Source of the DNA: an uncultured Bacteroidota bacterium
GTDB lineage: Bacteria; Bacteroidota; Bacteroidia; NS11-12g; UBA9320
Assembly (NCBI GenBank): GCA_937124965.1
Contig: CAKZLB010000067.1
Span: 1-64,000 of the forward strand
Length of the DNA stretch: 64,000 nucleotides
Reading direction: 5' to 3'
The position numbers and the translations under genes were made by a program. Of this stretch, positions 8,821 to 41,009 are shown one piece after another (position 1 is the first letter of the stretch; each line of letters opens with the position of its first letter). The notes under the pieces are model-generated. The model was not told the DNA's origin and ran no database searches. It saw only the letters and a list, made by a program, of their open reading frames with translations.

Positions 8821-11241
8821 ATGATACAAAAGTCGATTCTATATAAATCACTCATTCTCAGTGTTGTATTCATTTATTGCATAAAACCAACTTTGGCTCA
8901 AAAGCCGATAGGTAATTATTCGTGTGGTCATTCCCATTTGGAAAGTTCTGAAATCAACAAAAAAGCAAATGATTTTGATATCGTCCATTATTCCATAAAC
9001 CTTGATTTTACAGATTTTCAAAATCAACGAATAGAAGGATATACAGAAATTACTTTTGATGTTCAGAAACCATTAAATAGTATAGGTCTCCAGTTGGAAG
9101 GTTTGCAAGTTGATAGCATTGCTTCTGAGGGAAATAGCACATCATTCGATCACGATTCGACCGACCTTACTGTTCATTTTGGTAGTAATTTATTGCCAGG
9201 CTTAAACCACGTTATCCGTGTGTATTATAAGGGAAAACCAACCAGAGATGCAAGTTGGGGAGGAGTCTATTATTCAGGTGAGTATGCGTTTAATTTAGGT
9301 GTAGCTTTTACTTCTGCGCCACACAATTATGGACGAGTTTGGTTTCCATGCGTCGATAATTTTTCGGATCGTGCTACGTACGATTTTAACATGACTTGTA
9401 CTAACGACAAAAAGGTTTTGTGCAATGGAATACTTACGTCAGAAGTTGCAAATAGCGATAGTACGAAAACATTTACATGGGAAATGAATGATGAAATACC
9501 AACGTACTTAGCCAGCTTTGCTGTTGCACCTTACACGCTAAATACTTGGAATCATAAAGGAATTCCTGTTATTTTAGCATCAGTGGCTTCGGATTCTGCA
9601 AACATGGCAGCATCTTTTAAAAACTTAAACGGATGTATTGATGCCTATTTGAACCAATACGGCCCTCATACATTTGATCGAATAGGATTTAATGCTGTTC
9701 CGTTTAACGGGGGGGCAATGGAGCACGCAACCAATATTGCATACCCGCGCTTTGGTGTTGGTGGAGACTTGACCTTTGAAACGCTTTATGCGCACGAACT
9801 CGGTCACCATTGGTGGGGCAACACAGTAACGTGCCGTACTGCTGAGGATATGTGGATTAACGAAGGTTGGGCGTCATATTCTGAGAGAGTATTTCTGGAA
9901 TGGGTTTATGGAAAAGCACGATATGATGAGGATATTTCTGCGAATCATCGTGCAGTGTTACATTATGCACATTTGAGAGATGGAGATACCTTAGCTATTT
10001 CTGGCGTTAGTCATGAAAATACCTACGGAAGCCATGTATATGATAAAGGCGCCGATGTTGCACACACGCTTCGCGGGTATATGGGAGATTCGTCATTCTT
10101 TGAGGCAATCAAAACATTCATGACTACGTACAAATTTAAAGATGTTTCAAGCCAAGATTTAATGGAACACTTCCAGAAATATACCACAGCGAATTTGACG
10201 TCATTTTTCGATAATTGGGTGTACAATGAAGGCTTTCCACATTTTCAACTGTTAGGTTATCAAACGAATAAAGCGCCACAAATAGCTGGTTTTGTCAATA
10301 AAGTTGATATCGGACAACGATTACGATTTGCGCCAACTGATTTTACGAATGTTCCCATTGATGTGACATTTTATTCGAAGGATTTTGAAGAATATACCAC
10401 ATCAATTAACTATGACAAATCAACAAAAACGTATGAAATTACTACGCCGTTCATACCGGTTTACGTAGCATTGGATTTTTACAAAAAAATAAGCGATGCA
10501 ATAACCGACGACTACAACGTTATTTATGAAGCTGGTGAAGTCGATTTTGTAGATGCCATGATGAAATTGAATGTAATTGAGTCGCCTGATTCATCGTTGG
10601 TGCGAATTGAGCACAATTGGGTAGGAGCCGATGCCTATTTTAGAACAGACGAGACCCCGTTTTTATCTCGAGAACGATTCTGGACAGTTGATGGTGTTTG
10701 GAATTCTAAGTTTAAAGCAGATGCGACGATTGAGTATTTTGGGCGTGAAACGGGAACCAATTATTTAGCTGGATATTTAGACGTAGACCTGCTGCGAAAC
10801 ACCGAAGAGAACCTGGTTCTTATGTATCGGCCAAATGCGGCAGCTACTTGGGACGTGTGTCCTAATTATTCGTGGGATATGGGGTCAAAGTTTGACAAAC
10901 GAGGATCGTTTACAATCCATAATGTTCAAAAGGGGCAGTACTGCTTCGCCATAACGGATAAAGATCGATTATCAGTAAGAACAACGCCAACTGAAGCAGG
11001 GGAGTTTGTCTCTGTGTTTCCAAATCCAACAACAGACTCGCTCAATTTAACCATTTCAAAAGCAAAAGGTGGAGTGTTGGAAATTACGAACACGGAAGGC
11101 AAGTTGATGTTGTCACAAAAAATCACGTCAAAAAATTATTCGCAATCGATAAATGTTTCAGAATGGGCGAAAGGATTGTACTATGTTGGAATTGTATTGG
11201 ACAATAAACCGTATCAACCGAAGCGAGTTTTAGTGCGATAA
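8821..11241 (+). CDS. Secreted M1-family zinc aminopeptidase with T9SS sorting domain
   Basis: 806 residues with a signal peptide ending TLAQ. The M1 signature is complete: substrate-binding GGAMEH in place of the usual GAMEN at about residue 300, zinc site HELGH (H325, E326, H329) and the third ligand Glu348 in NEGWASYSE, exactly 19 residues after the second His. A catalytic Tyr is plausible in ENTYGSHVYDKG. The chain ends with a type A sorting domain (VSVFPNPTTDSLNL, GLYYVGIV). It should cleave N-terminal residues from peptides outside the cell or at its surface. The GAMEH variant may shift specificity for the free amino group. No operon partner; the next gene (ung) is convergent, ten bases away. 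Confidence 0.93.
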   Translation: MIQKSILYKSLILSVVFIYCIKPTLAQKPIGNYSCGHSHLESSEINKKANDFDIVHYSINLDFTDFQNQRIEGYTEITFDVQKPLNSIGLQLEGLQVDSIASEGNSTSFDHDSTDLTVHFGSNLLPGLNHVIRVYYKGKPTRDASWGGVYYSGEYAFNLGVAFTSAPHNYGRVWFPCVDNFSDRATYDFNMTCTNDKKVLCNGILTSEVANSDSTKTFTWEMNDEIPTYLASFAVAPYTLNTWNHKGIPVILASVASDSANMAASFKNLNGCIDAYLNQYGPHTFDRIGFNAVPFNGGAMEHATNIAYPRFGVGGDLTFETLYAHELGHHWWGNTVTCRTAEDMWINEGWASYSERVFLEWVYGKARYDEDISANHRAVLHYAHLRDGDTLAISGVSHENTYGSHVYDKGADVAHTLRGYMGDSSFFEAIKTFMTTYKFKDVSSQDLMEHFQKYTTANLTSFFDNWVYNEGFPHFQLLGYQTNKAPQIAGFVNKVDIGQRLRFAPTDFTNVPIDVTFYSKDFEEYTTSINYDKSTKTYEITTPFIPVYVALDFYKKISDAITDDYNVIYEAGEVDFVDAMMKLNVIESPDSSLVRIEHNWVGADAYFRTDETPFLSRERFWTVDGVWNSKFKADATIEYFGRETGTNYLAGYLDVDLLRNTEENLVLMYRPNAAATWDVCPNYSWDMGSKFDKRGSFTIHNVQKGQYCFAITDKDRLSVRTTPTEAGEFVSVFPNPTTDSLNLTISKAKGGVLEITNTEGKLMLSQKITSKNYSQSINVSEWAKGLYYVGIVLDNKPYQPKRVLVR

Positions 11242-33063: not shown

Positions 33064-33705
33064 TCAGTCAACTAAACCCATTTGCACAGCATATTTCACC
33101 AAACCAGCAGCACTCCGGACACCAAGTTTACTAATGAGGTTTTTACGATGTGATTCAACGGTATGTGGACTGATACAGAGTTTGTCTGCAATTTCTGCCG
33201 TTGTGAATTCTTGTGCAATGTGTCTTAAAACCTGTGTTTCACGTTCGGTCAACTTTACATTCCCTGTTTCTTTTTGAGCTTTTTGTTTTTGCTGTAAACC
33301 TTCCATTATTCGTTGGGTCACGGCGGGACTGTAATACGAGTTGCCGTCCATTACCGTTTCAATGGCGGTTTGAAGTTCTGCAACACCCGTGTTTTTCAAA
33401 ATGTAACCATGTGCACCAGCTTTAAGCAAGCGTTCAATGTGGTTTCTAGAATCGTGCATTGAAAGCATTAAAACCTTGCAATTAGGGAATTTTTCAACGA
33501 CGTATTTGGTTGACTCGTAACCATCCATTTTAGGCATACTAATGTCCATTAATACCACATCTGGTGTCACGGTTGTCAACAGGTCAATCAATTGAACGCC
33601 GTCATTTGCTTCGCCAACGACGGAAATATTTTCCATGGAATCAATTAAGCCGTGTATTCCGTCAATAAACATTTGATGATCATCTACAATTACTACCTGT
33701 ATCAT
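33064..33705 (-). CDS. NarL/LuxR-type response regulator of module 2
   Basis: 213 residues. Receiver with DDH (8-10), phospho-acceptor Asp54 (VLMDISMPKMDG) and LKNTG near the Lys switch. LuxR-type HTH LTERETQVLRHIAQE ... TAEIADKLCISPHTVESHRKNL. ATG 33705 overlaps the kinase stop by 4 bases (ATGA type), so it is the kinase's partner. A candidate target site is the TCCCTGA-tt-TCAGGGA palindrome in front of the two secreted genes 3-4 kb upstream (inference). Confidence 0.94.
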   Translation of the reverse strand: MIQVVIVDDHQMFIDGIHGLIDSMENISVVGEANDGVQLIDLLTTVTPDVVLMDISMPKMDGYESTKYVVEKFPNCKVLMLSMHDSRNHIERLLKAGAHGYILKNTGVAELQTAIETVMDGNSYYSPAVTQRIMEGLQQKQKAQKETGNVKLTERETQVLRHIAQEFTTAEIADKLCISPHTVESHRKNLISKLGVRSAAGLVKYAVQMGLVD

Positions 33706-35627
33706 ATGCTTTCGTTTAAAGGGATTTCTACTATTATGGTTGTTCCGCGGTCAATAACAGAATCGATGTGAAGGTTTCCATTAATCTTTTCAGCTCGCTT
33801 TTGCAGACTGTTGAGCCCCATTCCACCAGCTTTTGTCTTTTCGTCTACACTAAACCCGACTCCATTATCTTCAATGTGCATGTTGAGCTCATCTTCTAAT
33901 CGGTTCAATTGGATGTCAATCTTGGTAGCTTTCGCATGTTTGATCACGTTGTTAACGGCTTCTTGTGCAATCCGATAAATTTCTATTTCTATGGATAAAC
34001 TTAGTGGTTTATCCATATCATGACTATCAAACGAACAGGCAATTTTTCCAGTTTCGTTAATGCCATCACAGAGCTCTTCTAGTGATTTCACTAATCCAAA
34101 ATTTGCAACCATTCCAGTTCCTAAATTATGAGAGATGCGTCGTACTTCAATACAGGCAGTGTCAATCAATTCATTTGCTTTATTAAACTGCTTGGTGTTT
34201 TCTAGTTGTGCTTTGTCAATCTTTTCACCCAACGAACCAAACATTAGTTTTATCGTTGAAAGCATACTGCCTAATCGATCGTGAAGGTCAGCCGCAATCC
34301 GGTGTCGTTCTTCTTCTTGCCCTTCTAACATGGCGTTGTAGGTTTTGATTTCCTGCTCATCCATGAGGGTTTCAATTCTCTGTTGCGAGATGATTTCTTT
34401 TTGTCTTGCCAAACGATTCCGTTGGATGTAGTAAAATCCTAAAACGAATAATCCGAGCAGTACCGCAATTAAACCAGCAATTAAATATCTTTTTTGAGCA
34501 GTCTTTGTTTTGTTTTCTTGGGCTAACAGTAAAATTTGCTGAGCCTTTTTCTCTGTTTCGTATTTGGTCTGCATTTCCGAAATACTGGAGATAGTTTGGG
34601 TATTAAGTAATGAGTCTTGTAGCTGAGCAAAGAGTACATGATTTGAGTATGCTTGTTCATAATTTTTATTGAGTAAATGAGCATCTGACATTGATTTATA
34701 AATATCGGCAGACAAGTCAACATCACCTTGATTCACGGCTAATTTTAGCGCATGAGAAAGCTTGGCTATAGCAGAGTCAGCATTCTTTAAGTCGACATAA
34801 ACACTGCCAATATTATAGAGCACTTGAGCTAAGTTTTCATTAAAAGAATATTCTTTGTAAATATCTTCTGCAACTTTTAAATTTTTCATTGCAAGACGTG
34901 GTTTGTCAAGATTCAAATATGATATCCCAATGTTTTCAGCCGTAATGCCTACATAACTGACATACCCCAAGTCCTGATAAATGTGATTGGCATGCAAGTA
35001 ATAAACCAACGCGCTGTCAAATGCTGCAGTTGATATAAAATATTTGGCGATTCTGGATAATGCAAAAGCATGGTAATAGGTGTTTTGAACCTCTTGAGAT
35101 AAAGCCAACGCTTGCTTATGATAGGTTAACGCTTGTTCGAGGTCTTGGTACTCAAAGTTAAGATTGCCTAATTCACTGTAAGCCAATATTTGCGTATTTA
35201 TATCTCCACTTTTGTCTGCTTGTTGGGCAGCAAATACTGCCTTAACAAATGCTGCCTCGGTTTGGCCAATGGTTTGGTAAATGTTAGAGAGCAATAAAGC
35301 AGTACCAGCACTTCGCCTAAAATCATTTAGCTCTATCCGAATGTCTAATGCTTGTTGTGCGTTAAGTAAAGCTGAATCATTTTTTCCCTTTAGGTATTGA
35401 ATGTGAGCTAAACGATGTAGACCATGGCTTAATCCTTGAACAAAATCAATCTGTTGTGAATCAAAAATTATTTTACGGGCGATTGTTAATGCCGAATCCG
35501 GATTGCTACTTTGTAGTTCGACAGCTTGGCTAACTAACGCCATAATTGAACTGCTATCCTTAGAAAAGGAAAAAGCATTTCCGTTAAATACGAAAATGCT
35601 AAATATGGTGAAAAGAATTATTTTCAT
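33702..35627 (-). CDS. TPR sensor histidine kinase of module 2 (HisKA_3 family)
   Basis: 641 residues with a cleavable signal peptide (IILFTIFSIFVFNGNAFSF) rather than a lipobox. Residues about 30-370 form TPR repeats (for example ALTYHKQALALSQEVQNTYY, AIAKLSHALKLAVNQGD). A membrane helix lies at about 388-408 (LIAGLIAVLLGLFVLGFYYI), then a coiled coil, the H box ERHRIAADLHDRLGS with His449, and HATPase motifs EAVNNVIKHAKA, DNGVGF and GGMGL. It shares architecture and the conserved E-x-R-x-RIA-x-DLHDRLGS box with module 1. The ATG overlaps the upstream unknown gene by four bases (ATGA). Confidence 0.93.
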   Translation of the reverse strand: MKIILFTIFSIFVFNGNAFSFSKDSSSIMALVSQAVELQSSNPDSALTIARKIIFDSQQIDFVQGLSHGLHRLAHIQYLKGKNDSALLNAQQALDIRIELNDFRRSAGTALLLSNIYQTIGQTEAAFVKAVFAAQQADKSGDINTQILAYSELGNLNFEYQDLEQALTYHKQALALSQEVQNTYYHAFALSRIAKYFISTAAFDSALVYYLHANHIYQDLGYVSYVGITAENIGISYLNLDKPRLAMKNLKVAEDIYKEYSFNENLAQVLYNIGSVYVDLKNADSAIAKLSHALKLAVNQGDVDLSADIYKSMSDAHLLNKNYEQAYSNHVLFAQLQDSLLNTQTISSISEMQTKYETEKKAQQILLLAQENKTKTAQKRYLIAGLIAVLLGLFVLGFYYIQRNRLARQKEIISQQRIETLMDEQEIKTYNAMLEGQEEERHRIAADLHDRLGSMLSTIKLMFGSLGEKIDKAQLENTKQFNKANELIDTACIEVRRISHNLGTGMVANFGLVKSLEELCDGINETGKIACSFDSHDMDKPLSLSIEIEIYRIAQEAVNNVIKHAKATKIDIQLNRLEDELNMHIEDNGVGFSVDEKTKAGGMGLNSLQKRAEKINGNLHIDSVIDRGTTIIVEIPLNESI

Positions 35628-36402: not shown

Positions 36403-36777
36403 TTAGTCACAGTTAACTAAGGCTTGGTCAAGGCACTGGCTAGGTGAGCTTGTAATTTGTGACCCGTCCATCAAAATCAACACTACCTTATACTGTACAT
36501 TTTTAGCAGTATCGTCGAAATCAACGAAGGAATACGTTTGAGAAAATGGGGTAGAACCTTGAGCCGATTGGTACGCAACAATTTTGAAATCTATCCCGTT
36601 CGTGCTTTTTTGTACCAAATAATTCGAGGCATTTACCTCTTTGTTGTTCTCCCATGAAATTATTGTTTCGTACGATAACTTCTGTGTTTGTAATACAACA
36701 GAGTTTGAAGTGGACTGAGCTGTGGCTGTTAACATTGTGAATGCTGAAAAGGCTAGTGTTAAAATTGAAGTTTTCAT
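36403..36777 (-). CDS. Small secreted FN3-like protein B
   Basis: 124 residues from ATG 36777, which gives a textbook signal peptide MKTSILTLAFSAFTML ... TATAQ. A TTG 40 codons upstream is in frame but adds a charged, unlikely N-terminus. The mature part is one beta sandwich with the Bacteroidota pattern ISWENNKEVNASNYLVQKST-DG-x-x-F and Y-S-F-V-D-F, normally seen just before T9SS sorting domains, but here it stands alone with no sorting domain and ends in QCLDQALVNCD. It is paralogous to 36977-37372, the next gene upstream, and has the same promoter and palindrome arrangement. Gene C of the kinase module follows 44 bases downstream. Confidence 0.8.
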   Translation of the reverse strand: MKTSILTLAFSAFTMLTATAQSTSNSVVLQTQKLSYETIISWENNKEVNASNYLVQKSTNGIDFKIVAYQSAQGSTPFSQTYSFVDFDDTAKNVQYKVVLILMDGSQITSSPSQCLDQALVNCD

Positions 36778-36806
36778 ATTGAGTGCTTTTATTGTTTTTG
36801 ACAATA

Positions 36807-36814
36807 CAAAGATG
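36807..36814 (-). promoter_or_regulatory. CATCTTTG -7 box of secreted protein B
   Basis: One mismatch to TAnnTTTG, 29 bases before the ATG. The centre of the palindrome upstream is 56.5 bases from the box, the same as for paralogue A. Confidence 0.5.
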
Positions 36815-36860
36815 TGGATGAGAACAAATGTTCTTTTACCTGAAAACCGTGAAAGTGAAG

Positions 36861-36880
36861 CATCCCTGATTTCAGGGATG
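36861..36880. promoter_or_regulatory. Palindrome CATCCCTGA-tt-TCAGGGATG, putative operator
   Basis: Perfect 9-bp arms around TT. The core TCCCTGATTTCAGGGA recurs at 37453-37468 in front of the paralogous gene with identical spacing to the -7 box. The position (about 60-70 bases upstream of the expected start) fits an activator site, and the neighbouring NarL-type regulator is the obvious candidate (inference). Confidence 0.65.
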
Positions 36881-36908
36881 AACATAGTTGACGTCACTTT
36901 TAACCATT

Positions 36909-36938
36909 AAAAAACCCCGAAATGCGAACACTTCGAGG
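36909..36938 (-). terminator. Terminator of secreted protein A gene
   Basis: On the minus strand CCTCGAA pairs with TTCGGGG (one G-U) and is followed by six T. It lies 38 bases after the stop of 36977-37372 and separates the two paralogues. Confidence 0.7.
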
Positions 36939-36976
36939 CCGGTTATTAAACATATATATAAAATATGAATGACGTA

Positions 36977-37372
36977 TTAATGCTCTCCGTTTGTATCAAC
37001 TTGAGCTATGTTTGATGGATATGAAGTTGCAGTATTACTTGCGAACGAAGAACCATCCATACAAATTAGTGTAATGCGATATTGAACTAAAACCGAGTCT
37101 ACTGACAAGTCTTCAAACGTGTAGCTGTTTACCTTGTTGGATGACCCAGAAGCAACTTGTTTTCCTATTTTTTTAAATGTTATTCCGTCGGTTGACTTTT
37201 CAATTAAAAAGTAACTTGTATTGGCTTCATTGAATGTTTCCCAAGACACAACTGTGATGTCATACTCTAGAGAAGTGGTTAACTCTATGTGATTGCTGTG
37301 TGCTTTCGTTTGAGCAAATGAGGTTGCAGTGATCGTTACAAGTAATGCGATGGTTGATACTAGAGTTTTCAT
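36977..37372 (-). CDS. Small secreted FN3-like protein A
   Basis: 131 residues with a signal peptide ending TSFAQ. A single FN3-like sandwich has VVSWETFNEANTSYFLIEKS-TDG-x-x-F, YTFEDLS and VQYRITLICMDGSSF. It is clearly paralogous to the next gene downstream (LVQKSTNGIDF, YSFVDFD, VQYKVVLILMDGSQI). There is no T9SS sorting domain, so it is presumably periplasmic or released by another route. It is a separate transcription unit: its own promoter-like box and palindrome upstream, its own terminator downstream. Function unknown. Confidence 0.8.
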   Translation of the reverse strand: MKTLVSTIALLVTITATSFAQTKAHSNHIELTTSLEYDITVVSWETFNEANTSYFLIEKSTDGITFKKIGKQVASGSSNKVNSYTFEDLSVDSVLVQYRITLICMDGSSFASNTATSYPSNIAQVDTNGEH

Positions 37373-37396
37373 AATGTTTTCTTTTTATTGACACTT

Positions 37397-37404
37397 CAAA
37401 GATG
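37397..37404 (-). promoter_or_regulatory. CATCTTTG -7 box of secreted protein A
   Basis: Same eight bases as in front of paralogue B, here 24 bases before the ATG. Flanking bases are also conserved (CATCTTTG then a TGTCAA word nearby in both). Confidence 0.5.
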
Positions 37405-37452
37405 CGGGCCCATTATGTCCATTATGTCACCAGTACCAGTGAAATATACATA

Positions 37453-37468
37453 TCCCTGATTTCAGGGA
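37453..37468. promoter_or_regulatory. Palindrome TCCCTGA-tt-TCAGGGA, putative operator
   Basis: Same 16-bp core as 36861-36880. Its centre is 56.5 bases upstream of the -7 box, matching the other copy exactly. Confidence 0.65.
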
Positions 37469-37637: not shown

Positions 37638-40058
37638 TTATTCTTTTCTACTATATATCGAATAAGTTTTTGATGCTTTGTCGATGAGTTGCAAAAGCTC
37701 TTGTCGGTAGCCGTGTTCGTCAGAACCTAAGGATCCTAAAACGATCGTTCGAGCCAATGTAAAATCTTTTTGATTTATGTATTTGCTCTGACGTAGTTGC
37801 TGAGCAAACAAAGCGGTTCCTGCCGCAAATTGAAAATCTTGAGATGCGGACTGAAAGGAGTTACTGGAAACGTTCATTGTTTTCGTTAGTAGCATGCTTG
37901 TTGTCCCATTCGGTTTTTTATATCGAAGTTTCACCGTACACATTTCATCGCCGTATGTTTCTGCTGATGTTGTGGGCGTTTTCTGATATTTCAATTCGAT
38001 GTTACCTGGTATTTCTTCGGGACTTCCAGCGGGTATGATTTCGTATAAAGCAGTTACAGAATGTCCAGCACCCAACTCTCCGCCGTCTTTTGTGTCGTCA
38101 TTAAAATCTTGTGGTGGCATTTTTCGGTTTTCATAACCAATTAAACGATATGCTTTTACGTGCTTTGGATTAAACTCCACCTGAATTTTAACATCCTTAG
38201 CAATCGTAAAAAGAGTTGCTCTCATTTCAGTGTTAAACACTTTTTCAGATTCTTTGTACGTGTCGATGTAGAAGTAGTTTCCATTTCCATTGTCCGCAAT
38301 AGTTTCCATTTTAGAATCTTGGTAATTGCCCATTCCAAAACCACAAGAAGTAATAAAGATGCCTTTGTTTCGGTTGTTAATGATCAACTGTTTCATGTCA
38401 CTGTCACTGCTTTGACCAACATTGAAATCACCATCAGTACACATAATAACACGGTTGTTGCCACCGACAATTAAATTTTGAGAAGCGATGTTGTAGGCTA
38501 ATTTAATACCTTCTCCACCAGCGGTCGAACCTCCTGCATCTAGTTTGTCGATTTTCTTTTTGATGTACTCTTTTTCATCGCAAGTCGTAGATTCTAGTGC
38601 TAAACCTGCAGCACCGGCGTAAGTGACAATAGCTATTCGGTCGTTTTTACCCATTTGATCCACCAACAATTTCATGGATTTTTTTACCAATGGAAGCTTG
38701 TTTTCAGAATCCATGGAACCACTTACATCAATCAGAAAAACCAAATTGCTGTTTTGAACGCGCGAGTAGTCAATATCTTTTCCTTTTAAACCAATTCGAA
38801 CCAGTTTATGGTCAGCGTTCCACGGACAAGCAGCGTTTTCTAAATTAATAGAAAATGGCTCGTCGGATGTTGGTTGTGAATACGAATAATTGAAGTAGTT
38901 GATGAACTCTTCCACACGAACTGCATCTTTCGGTACCACTTGATTTGAATTCAATTTCGACCGCATGATGGAATAACTCGCGTTGTCGACATCAATTCCA
39001 AAAGTAGATAATGGCTCTTTGTATGGATCTTCGTAATCGTTTTCAATTAGTGGGTAGTACGATTCTGTGTTTACGGGTTCTTTGTAGTTTTGCAGTGACC
39101 AATCGTATTTCATATCACCTTTTGCAATTGCAGATTCGTTTTTAAAAAAACCATCCTTTGTATTGCTGTCCCTTTTTTTCTCAACTTCTACGTATTTCGT
39201 GTCGTCGTTTTCCGATAGTACATAAGAATTTGCATCAGAACGTGCGCGACCAATGGAAATTGCAGCGACCTCAACACTTTCTCTTGTAGACATTGAGAGT
39301 ACTTCCTTTTTGTCCATTGAGTTTACAACAACAGATTTCAGATTTTTATCAACGACAACATAGCCATTATCATTTGTTGTTTTTTTTGTTTCAGACAACT
39401 TAACGTTGTAATTACTTATTGTTGGAGTGCTTTTACTTACCGAACCCGCAAATCCTAGTGTCGTTACATCTGGAGAACTATAATTATACGTTGCTCCACT
39501 ATTCGTATTTACATTGTACGTACCAGAATAAGAATAGGCAGGAGTTACTTGAGTCGATAAACCATCGCCAAAATTCCAATTGTACGATGAAGTCATAATC
39601 GAATCTGATACTACGTTAAGTGTTGGGTCGATACCCATTTGGTCTTGAACCGACTGTGCGTACTTCTTGTCGCGCATCGCTAATCCTGCTTTTCCGTCAT
39701 ATGGACCTGTTGTAGGGACGGTTGGAGGGCCAGGTTTAACAGGAACAATAGGTACAGGGTTTTGCACTTCTATTGTTTGCGAATCGTGTTTGCCTGTATG
39801 TTTTCGATCGTTGTTTACGGGATCTTGCAGCGTATTCACTTCCACCACAGGAACATCCACAGACTTTGTGAATACCCAGTTTAGCGAAAGCATAATGGCT
39901 ACCGTCGCGGCGATGCCAGTTATCCAGCGCCAATACAGAATTTTTGGTTTGTCGTCCTCTTCCAAATTGGCAGCTATCGAATCCCAAAGCTCTGCTTTTG
40001 GTTCGTATTGAGGTAGGTTTTCTAATCCTCGTTTTATATCGTTGTTTTGCTCGTTCAT
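37638..40058 (-). CDS. Anti-sigma-like membrane protein fused to a VWA (YfbK-type) domain
   Basis: 806 residues. The N-terminal cytosolic 40 residues (LPQYEPKAELWDSIAANLEE) are typical of Bacteroidota anti-sigma factors. One membrane helix follows at about 43-66 (WRWITGIAATVAIMLSLNWV). Residues 70-320 are low-complexity periplasmic sequence with a WNFGDG PKD-like fragment. Then comes the PF12450-type segment (TFGIDVDNASYSIMR, then DAVRVEEFINYFNY), and a VWA domain with intact MIDAS DVSGSM (Asp444) and downstream GGSTAGGEGI and CTDGDFNVG. The C-terminal part resembles DUF3520. It probably binds the adjacent ECF sigma factor inside and responds to something bound by the VWA domain outside. The gene follows the sigma gene by 24 bases. 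Confidence 0.9.
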   Translation of the reverse strand: MNEQNNDIKRGLENLPQYEPKAELWDSIAANLEEDDKPKILYWRWITGIAATVAIMLSLNWVFTKSVDVPVVEVNTLQDPVNNDRKHTGKHDSQTIEVQNPVPIVPVKPGPPTVPTTGPYDGKAGLAMRDKKYAQSVQDQMGIDPTLNVVSDSIMTSSYNWNFGDGLSTQVTPAYSYSGTYNVNTNSGATYNYSSPDVTTLGFAGSVSKSTPTISNYNVKLSETKKTTNDNGYVVVDKNLKSVVVNSMDKKEVLSMSTRESVEVAAISIGRARSDANSYVLSENDDTKYVEVEKKRDSNTKDGFFKNESAIAKGDMKYDWSLQNYKEPVNTESYYPLIENDYEDPYKEPLSTFGIDVDNASYSIMRSKLNSNQVVPKDAVRVEEFINYFNYSYSQPTSDEPFSINLENAACPWNADHKLVRIGLKGKDIDYSRVQNSNLVFLIDVSGSMDSENKLPLVKKSMKLLVDQMGKNDRIAIVTYAGAAGLALESTTCDEKEYIKKKIDKLDAGGSTAGGEGIKLAYNIASQNLIVGGNNRVIMCTDGDFNVGQSSDSDMKQLIINNRNKGIFITSCGFGMGNYQDSKMETIADNGNGNYFYIDTYKESEKVFNTEMRATLFTIAKDVKIQVEFNPKHVKAYRLIGYENRKMPPQDFNDDTKDGGELGAGHSVTALYEIIPAGSPEEIPGNIELKYQKTPTTSAETYGDEMCTVKLRYKKPNGTTSMLLTKTMNVSSNSFQSASQDFQFAAGTALFAQQLRQSKYINQKDFTLARTIVLGSLGSDEHGYRQELLQLIDKASKTYSIYSRKE

Positions 40059-40082
40059 GTTCTTTTCATTAATCCTTGCTGA

Positions 40083-40637
40083 CTATCGTTCGTTTTTTAA
40101 CTTAGTCTTCAATCGTTTTTTAGCATGATGCAATTGAGTACGGCTTGTACTTTCTGAAATGTTTAACATTTTGGCAATCTCAGTGTGTTTATATCCTTCT
40201 ATTTCGCATAAGGTAAATACGGTTCGATATCCTTCCGGCAAGGCGAATATCTCCCGCTCTAAGGCAGTAGAGGTGAACTTTTGATAATCCACCGACAGCT
40301 CATGTTTGTCGGAGAGAGTCTCAAAACGTTTTTCAAATTTTACGGTTTTGGTTGCTTTGCGAATCACAATCGTTTTTATCCAAGAACCAATCGTTCCTGA
40401 ACCTTTAAAACTTTTAAGTGATTGAAAAACGTCAATAAATGCTTCCTGAAGCGCATCATGCGCCAAATCTGCATCATTGGTAATGCGATAAGCCAGCGTG
40501 TACATCGCTTGGCTGTAGTTTTGGTACAACTGCTTCTGAGCCAAACGCTCACCTTCTAAACATCGCTGCAGCAATGTTTTTTCGGTTGCATCTTCTCTAG
40601 AAACACTCATACTTGCCGTTACTGTGTTTGCCATCAT
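40083..40637 (-). CDS. ECF-type RNA polymerase sigma factor
   Basis: 184 residues from ATG 40637 (40634 is also possible; an in-frame TTG at 40658 is unlikely). Region 2 reads LYQNYSQAMYTLAYRITNDADLAHDALQEAF, containing the conserved D-A-x-D-x-x-Q-E-x-F pattern, and region 4 reads LPEGYRTVFTLCEIEGYKHT then IAKMLNISESTSRTQLHHAK. It directs RNA polymerase to a dedicated set of promoters, and its activity is probably held by the anti-sigma/VWA protein encoded just downstream in the same operon. Confidence 0.95.
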   Translation of the reverse strand: MMANTVTASMSVSREDATEKTLLQRCLEGERLAQKQLYQNYSQAMYTLAYRITNDADLAHDALQEAFIDVFQSLKSFKGSGTIGSWIKTIVIRKATKTVKFEKRFETLSDKHELSVDYQKFTSTALEREIFALPEGYRTVFTLCEIEGYKHTEIAKMLNISESTSRTQLHHAKKRLKTKLKNER

Positions 40638-41009
40638 GTATACTAAAGGGACAGCCAAGTTGAAAAACGTTGTATGAAGTCAATCTTTTTTGAATATTAT
40701 CAATACACAGACACATGAATGCGAAAGATACATAATCCATTTCAACTAGGTTAGTAAGATATACATCAGCAGTTTAAAAGGTAAATGAATAGAATGTTTT
40801 GATGTGTTAAATTACATGCTTCTCCGCTATAACACACCCAGGAATACAGTTAGGCTTAAGAATATTTTGGTCAAACTTAAATTCCAATTTGTGTTGTGTA
40901 GGGCTAATCACTCAAACATTTGTCGGACAGGGAGTAACTGTAAAGACCGAATTGTTACTGTTTCTGTCTAGCCATCGATCAATGGTCGAAGCCATTTTAT
41001 CTACAAACG
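40638..41009. other. Spacer upstream of the ECF sigma gene
   Basis: About 370 bases before repeat copy B. It should hold the sigma operon promoter. Short frames here lack a start context or coding character, and nothing else was recognised. Confidence 0.5.

Follow-up and report, generated by a model that had tools for sequence, protein, structure and literature searches.

Matching palindromes as probable operators of a proposed self-activating TPR kinase/NarL-type regulator operon in an uncultured Bacteroidota bacterium

The same perfect palindrome occurs twice in a 64,000-nucleotide stretch of DNA (here called the window) from an uncultured Bacteroidota bacterium, each time upstream of a gene for a small, secreted, FN3-like protein. 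From sequence comparison, we propose with a probability of roughly 0.85 that these palindromes serve as operators for the NarL-type response regulator whose gene lies at 33064-33705, that both promoters are activated from two sites, and that the operon containing the regulator gene is self-activating. The signalling operon thus very probably switches itself on. The comparative support for pairing this regulator with this palindrome appears unusually complete. The relevant features, all on the minus strand, are listed below.

33064..33705, minus strand: NarL-type response regulator gene (Response_reg and GerE domains), with a 4-bp overlap with the kinase gene
33702..35627, minus strand: TPR sensor histidine kinase gene (TPR_12, HisKA_3 and HATPase_c domains), with a 4-bp overlap with the P240 gene
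35624..36358, minus strand: gene for P240, 244 aa without evident signal peptide; second operon gene
36403..36777, minus strand: gene for FN3-like protein copy b, 124 aa with signal peptide; first operon gene, behind promoter 1
36807..36814, minus strand: -7 box CATCTTTG of promoter 1, predicted +1 at 36802
36837..36852, minus strand: candidate secondary, degenerate 7-2-7 operator of promoter 1, TCACGGT-TT-TCAGGTA, centre at about -42.5
36863..36878, minus strand: candidate primary operator of promoter 1, TCCCTGA-AA-TCAGGGA on this strand, centre at about -68.5
36913..36940, minus strand: terminator-like hairpin and T tail, separating FN3 copy a from promoter 1
36977..37372, minus strand: gene for FN3-like protein copy a, 131 aa with signal peptide, behind promoter 2
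37397..37404, minus strand: -7 box CATCTTTG of promoter 2, predicted +1 at 37392
37427..37442, minus strand: candidate secondary, degenerate 7-2-7 operator of promoter 2, TCACTGG-TA-CTGGTGA
37453..37468, minus strand: candidate primary operator of promoter 2, TCCCTGA-AA-TCAGGGA on this strand

Given the short overlaps that join P240 to the kinase and the kinase to the regulator, we read these genes as one operon. The regulator belongs to the NarL/FixJ family by its Pfam domains (Response_reg, 1.1e-27; GerE, 2.5e-17) and carries D8, D9, D54, S82 and K104. The kinase has the domains of a HisKA_3-type partner (HisKA_3, 9.6e-12; HATPase_c, 6.6e-14). Its sequence reads as an N-terminal hydrophobic segment, TPRs, a transmembrane segment and then the kinase part, a layout that places the TPR sensor probably in the periplasm. 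FN3-like copies a and b are paralogues (36% identical), and a model of copy a (pLDDT 77) matches the FnIII domains of pectate lyases and Ihog. P240 has no Pfam or NCBIfam match, and its model, all-beta and of low confidence, matched nothing in the PDB. The name PixA/AidA (inclusion-body family) for P240 was dropped, there being no Pfam or NCBIfam match in any relative tested. Upstream of the operon (37638-40658) lie an ECF sigma factor gene and then a gene for a large VWA/YfbK-type protein; because relatives have different neighbours, we place both outside the unit.

Perfect 7-2-7 palindromes are not in themselves rare, with 12 in the window against about 6 expected. This particular 14-base sequence would be expected about 0.005 times in the 4.09-Mb genome, and TCCCTGA-TT-TCAGGGA occurs in it exactly twice. 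The copy at promoter 1 can be extended to 9-bp arms (36861-36880). The original prediction, that one palindrome stands twice at the same spacing from a -7-like box, was borne out: on the minus strand, both centres lie 56.5 bp from the first base of CATCTTTG. The genome-wide search allowing two mismatches that it proposed returned only the two known sites, each with its -7 box, so that the palindrome is neither widespread nor intragenic in this genome. No further site with two or fewer mismatches was found in the whole genome, and sites with three mismatches are close to background (all matches, 11 forward and 13 reverse, versus 8 and 9 for the reversed control).

Among 97 relatives, the palindrome is intergenic only in two congeners (G003 and G004); the sole coding match lies inside a murA-like gene of G065. 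Each of these congeners has a complete operon behind one palindrome, and they alone, besides the window genome, encode P240 among 94 relatives. Scanning 85,000 species genomes for the palindrome together with a box present in the initial four promoters yielded eleven stretches, the two congeners among them. Two others (L063 and L072) again contain the complete operon, one (L065) has the palindrome with a kinase-regulator pair, one (L066) has it with a secreted M1-type peptidase, and the remaining stretches look like chance. Searching 395 genomes of the class brought in G180, the only other genome in that set with the palindrome before an operon, while a P240 HMM found nothing further in 395 phylum genomes. 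Operon and palindrome therefore occur together in five further genomes (G003, G004, G180, G488, the source of L063, and G491, the source of L072), and the candidate operator stands in front of the regulator-encoding operon at promoter 1 and at the orthologous promoters of these five. Exact-motif searches, genome- and class-wide, returned these operon promoters, three more promoters in G489 and G490, chance matches and nothing else.

The three additional promoters head other genes. G489 has the palindrome before a kinase-regulator pair that comes without FN3-like or P240 genes (L065:982-4240); this pair adjoins a second kinase-regulator pair on the opposite strand. In G490, from which L066 comes, a further promoter with one mismatch and an equidistant -7 box stands before a gene for a small secreted protein, so that the palindromes of this genome precede two other secreted-protein genes. 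The P240-kinase-regulator operon of G490 (L128:1676-4963) lacks both a palindrome immediately in front and an FN3-like gene. In three genomes, genes for M1-type peptidases adjoin or follow the palindrome or the operon (L127:8274-10535, L130:1944-3955 and L072:4688-6358), divergently in G180, as the direct target in G490 and as a convergent neighbour in G491.

Flanking genes vary among the relatives, and the operon alone stays with the palindrome. The distribution is also patchy, with the system absent from two of four congeners and present in other families. Together, patchiness and changing flanks suggest that the operon may have spread by horizontal transfer. The comparison with related genomes that had been proposed thus shows palindrome, -7 distance and operon recurring together despite differing flanks, which supports the view that the palindrome is a transcription-factor site.

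We aligned ten promoters from eight genomes without gaps. The offsets of the primary palindrome, the secondary site and the -7 position are constant throughout, and the stretches between these elements show near-background similarity. Twenty-one columns are invariant: the primary palindrome, TCAC at +26 to +29, G at +38, TT at +68 and +69, and A at +80. The primary palindrome reads TCCCTGA-NN-TCAGGGA in all ten promoters, inverted heptamers 2 bp apart as in NarL-type 7-2-7 operators, and nine of ten have TTTG at the -7 position. A stretch TGT(T)CAA follows the -7 box at the predicted start in seven of ten promoters (36797-36803 and 37387-37393 in the window); apart from these two promoters, its frequency in the window does not clearly exceed chance.

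Columns 26-41 of the alignment make up a further 7-2-7 palindrome, with the pattern TCAC.G.-..-..[CA][AG]G.[GT]A. Palindrome and -7 box had both been recognised in the original prediction, which overlooked this weaker copy 26 bp nearer the gene. Its palindromicity (46/70, versus a mean of 18.5) and its match to the primary consensus (91/140, versus a mean of 32.8) are each the highest of all offsets. The right arm, absent from every search pattern, scores 43/70 against the primary arm, a value reached by 0 of 20,000 shuffles. The left arm, TTTCAC, was part of the pattern by which four promoters were retrieved and counts as independent evidence only for the other six. Reading the TTTCAC[GT]G box instead as a lone extra half-site, a direct repeat at +17, was rejected, as this scores 67 of 140 compared with 91 for the full 7-2-7 at +26.

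The -7 box was mapped at -12 to -5 in Flavobacterium psychrophilum (PMC9723704), which would put the two site centres at about -68.5 and -42.5, figures that depend on a box position taken from another genus. NarL prefers the 7-2-7 arrangement and has sites at -40/-49 in napF and -38/-47 in yeaR (PMC4549865). By this analogy, -42.5 is a known NarL activator position, and it suggests that the regulator activates its own operon. No -33 element or -33 TTTG is recognisable in these promoters, and the weak site occupies its place.

We therefore favour two-site activation, in which binding, cooperativity, the positive sign and dependence on phosphorylation are what we infer from the arrangement. A phosphorylated regulator dimer would bind the strong 7-2-7 palindrome at about -68.5 and help a second dimer onto the weak copy at about -42.5. 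Both dimers would recruit RNA polymerase to the -7 box, the proximal site substituting for the absent -33 element. Transcription from promoter 1 would yield FN3-like copy b, P240, the TPR kinase and the regulator, so that the system would activate itself, and promoter 2 would place the second, separately terminated FN3-like gene (copy a) under the same control. One point counts against the two-dimer account: the 26 bp between centres correspond to about 2.5 helical turns, which would set the dimers on different faces of the DNA.

The co-encoded regulator could instead act as a repressor that is released by a signal. We consider this unlikely. Both sites lie upstream of the -7 box rather than over the start, and a weak site at the -33 position combined with the lack of a -33 TTTG is typical of activator-dependent promoters; reasoning of this kind from site position follows established class II activation. 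Nevertheless, the sequence data are neutral as to the sign of regulation, and NarL does repress some promoters, for example frdA with its 7-2-7 site (PMC4549865).

Activation by the co-encoded regulator presupposes that this protein, among the many of its family, reads the palindrome. Regulators 54–74% identical to it were found in G003, G004, G488, G490, G491 and G180 (68%), all of them palindrome genomes. No regulator above 43% identity was found in G001, G002, G008, G009 or G065, which have no operon palindrome, and among the 395 class genomes G180 alone has one above 50%. The seven regulators from palindrome genomes form one clade (support 89/94) in a tree of 34 rows, one of which (L121) duplicates the L115 protein without affecting this clade. 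In NarL, residues of the recognition helix make base contacts. At the positions aligned with them, all eight palindrome-linked regulators, including the distant one from G489, have E-S/T-K, which was found in none of the other regulators compared; in the window regulator these are E184, S185 and K188. The palindrome-linked target proteins have drifted to only 19–44% identity, indicating that conservation falls on the DNA site and on the part of the regulator that would read it.

No palindrome is shared between C13, the closest kinase-regulator paralogue pair in the window genome, and the corresponding pair of G009, and second-tier regulators (42–50% identical) in six other genomes come with neither operon nor palindrome. 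G131 has a different intergenic perfect 7-2-7 palindrome, TACCTGT-TT-ACAGGTA (L158, reverse complement, 11046-11061), some 120 bp behind the gene for a related NarL-type regulator. The original prediction had put forward the NarL-type regulator and its TPR kinase as a natural candidate, and this choice is favoured by the finding that, in the genomes searched, regulators at least 54% identical occur only where the palindrome does. What it had overlooked is that the regulator shares an operon with the second FN3-like gene (copy b), which would make the site autoregulatory.

Binding by some other regulator encoded outside the operon appears very unlikely. In its favour, many families use palindromic sites, and the genome encodes about ten full-length NarL-type regulators. 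Two observations count against our assignment: the G490 operon is not itself preceded by a palindrome, and the G489 regulator, at just 43% identity, is not a member of the clade. Set against an outside regulator are the differing flanks, among which the operon alone accompanies the palindrome, the joint presence or absence of regulator and palindrome, and the combination of 7-2-7 geometry with E-S/T-K residues, which points to the operon regulator.

Finally, that the repeat is a by-product of a recent tandem duplication of FN3-like gene and promoter, with the hairpin acting as RNA (terminator or attenuator), would account for the two paralogous genes and for the listing of the palindromes as weak terminator-like stems in a hairpin scan, but is highly improbable, since promoters 1 and 2 share only 22–28% of bases outside the conserved elements, which excludes a recent copy, both sites precede the -7 box and so fall outside the transcript, no T run directly follows the stem, and the arms are constant around a variable loop dinucleotide (AA, TT, AT).

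The proposed regulator-operator pair resembles known systems in part. NarL-family regulators, 7-2-7 operators and autoregulated two-component operons are all known kinds, and within the NarL family autoregulated operons with one strong and one weak site are known. Like Escherichia coli NarL, the regulator combines Response_reg with GerE, its candidate sites are inverted heptamers 2 bp apart with pure C/G-rich arms (compare the engineered NarL site TACCCCTAAAGGGGTA), and a candidate operator stands at about -42.5 upstream of the promoter, as at napF and yeaR. It differs from NarL in the heptamer (TCCCTGA), in the residues aligned with the recognition helix (E-S-K rather than K-V-K), in its kinase partner with a probably periplasmic TPR part, and in its Bacteroidota -7 promoter, where no FNR site was seen. 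It scores 140.8 bits against the NCBIfam NarL equivalog, below the cut-off of 250. The best PDB sequence matches of the regulator are VraR and then NarL; the likeness to VraR/LiaR amounts to about 30% identity, and the systems differ in how the kinase is built, in the site and in the kind of promoter.

Among studied pairs from Bacteroidota, the closest one found is FimS/FimR of Porphyromonas gingivalis, a TPR sensor kinase and a regulator that directly activates surface-protein genes (mfa1) (PMC1974823). Here too, a Bacteroidota TPR kinase is paired with a response regulator, and the window kinase matches the NCBIfam FimS equivalog over its TPR part only (61.3 bits against a cut-off of 600). 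The target genes differ, and PMC1974823 gives no FimR palindrome. The literature searched contained neither the palindrome motif described here nor a described operator for a TPR kinase/NarL regulator pair of this kind.

A broader and more tentative reading, less likely than not, is that the FN3-like protein, P240, the periplasmic-TPR kinase, the NarL regulator and the two-operator switch form a self-contained, horizontally spreading cassette, with the secreted protein or P240 feeding back on the TPR sensor. Feedback of the secreted FN3-like protein on the sensor is possible but speculative.

Pairs of TPR kinase and NarL regulator are abundant in Bacteroidota genomes. For this one, sequence alone sufficed to bring together a regulator, the operator it probably binds, the layout of the promoters and the probable DNA-reading residues. 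The pair would offer a ready test of NarL-family activators at Bacteroidota promoters, which are without the usual -35 element. It also provides a handle on an orphan secreted-protein operon whose regulator and candidate binding site are directly testable.
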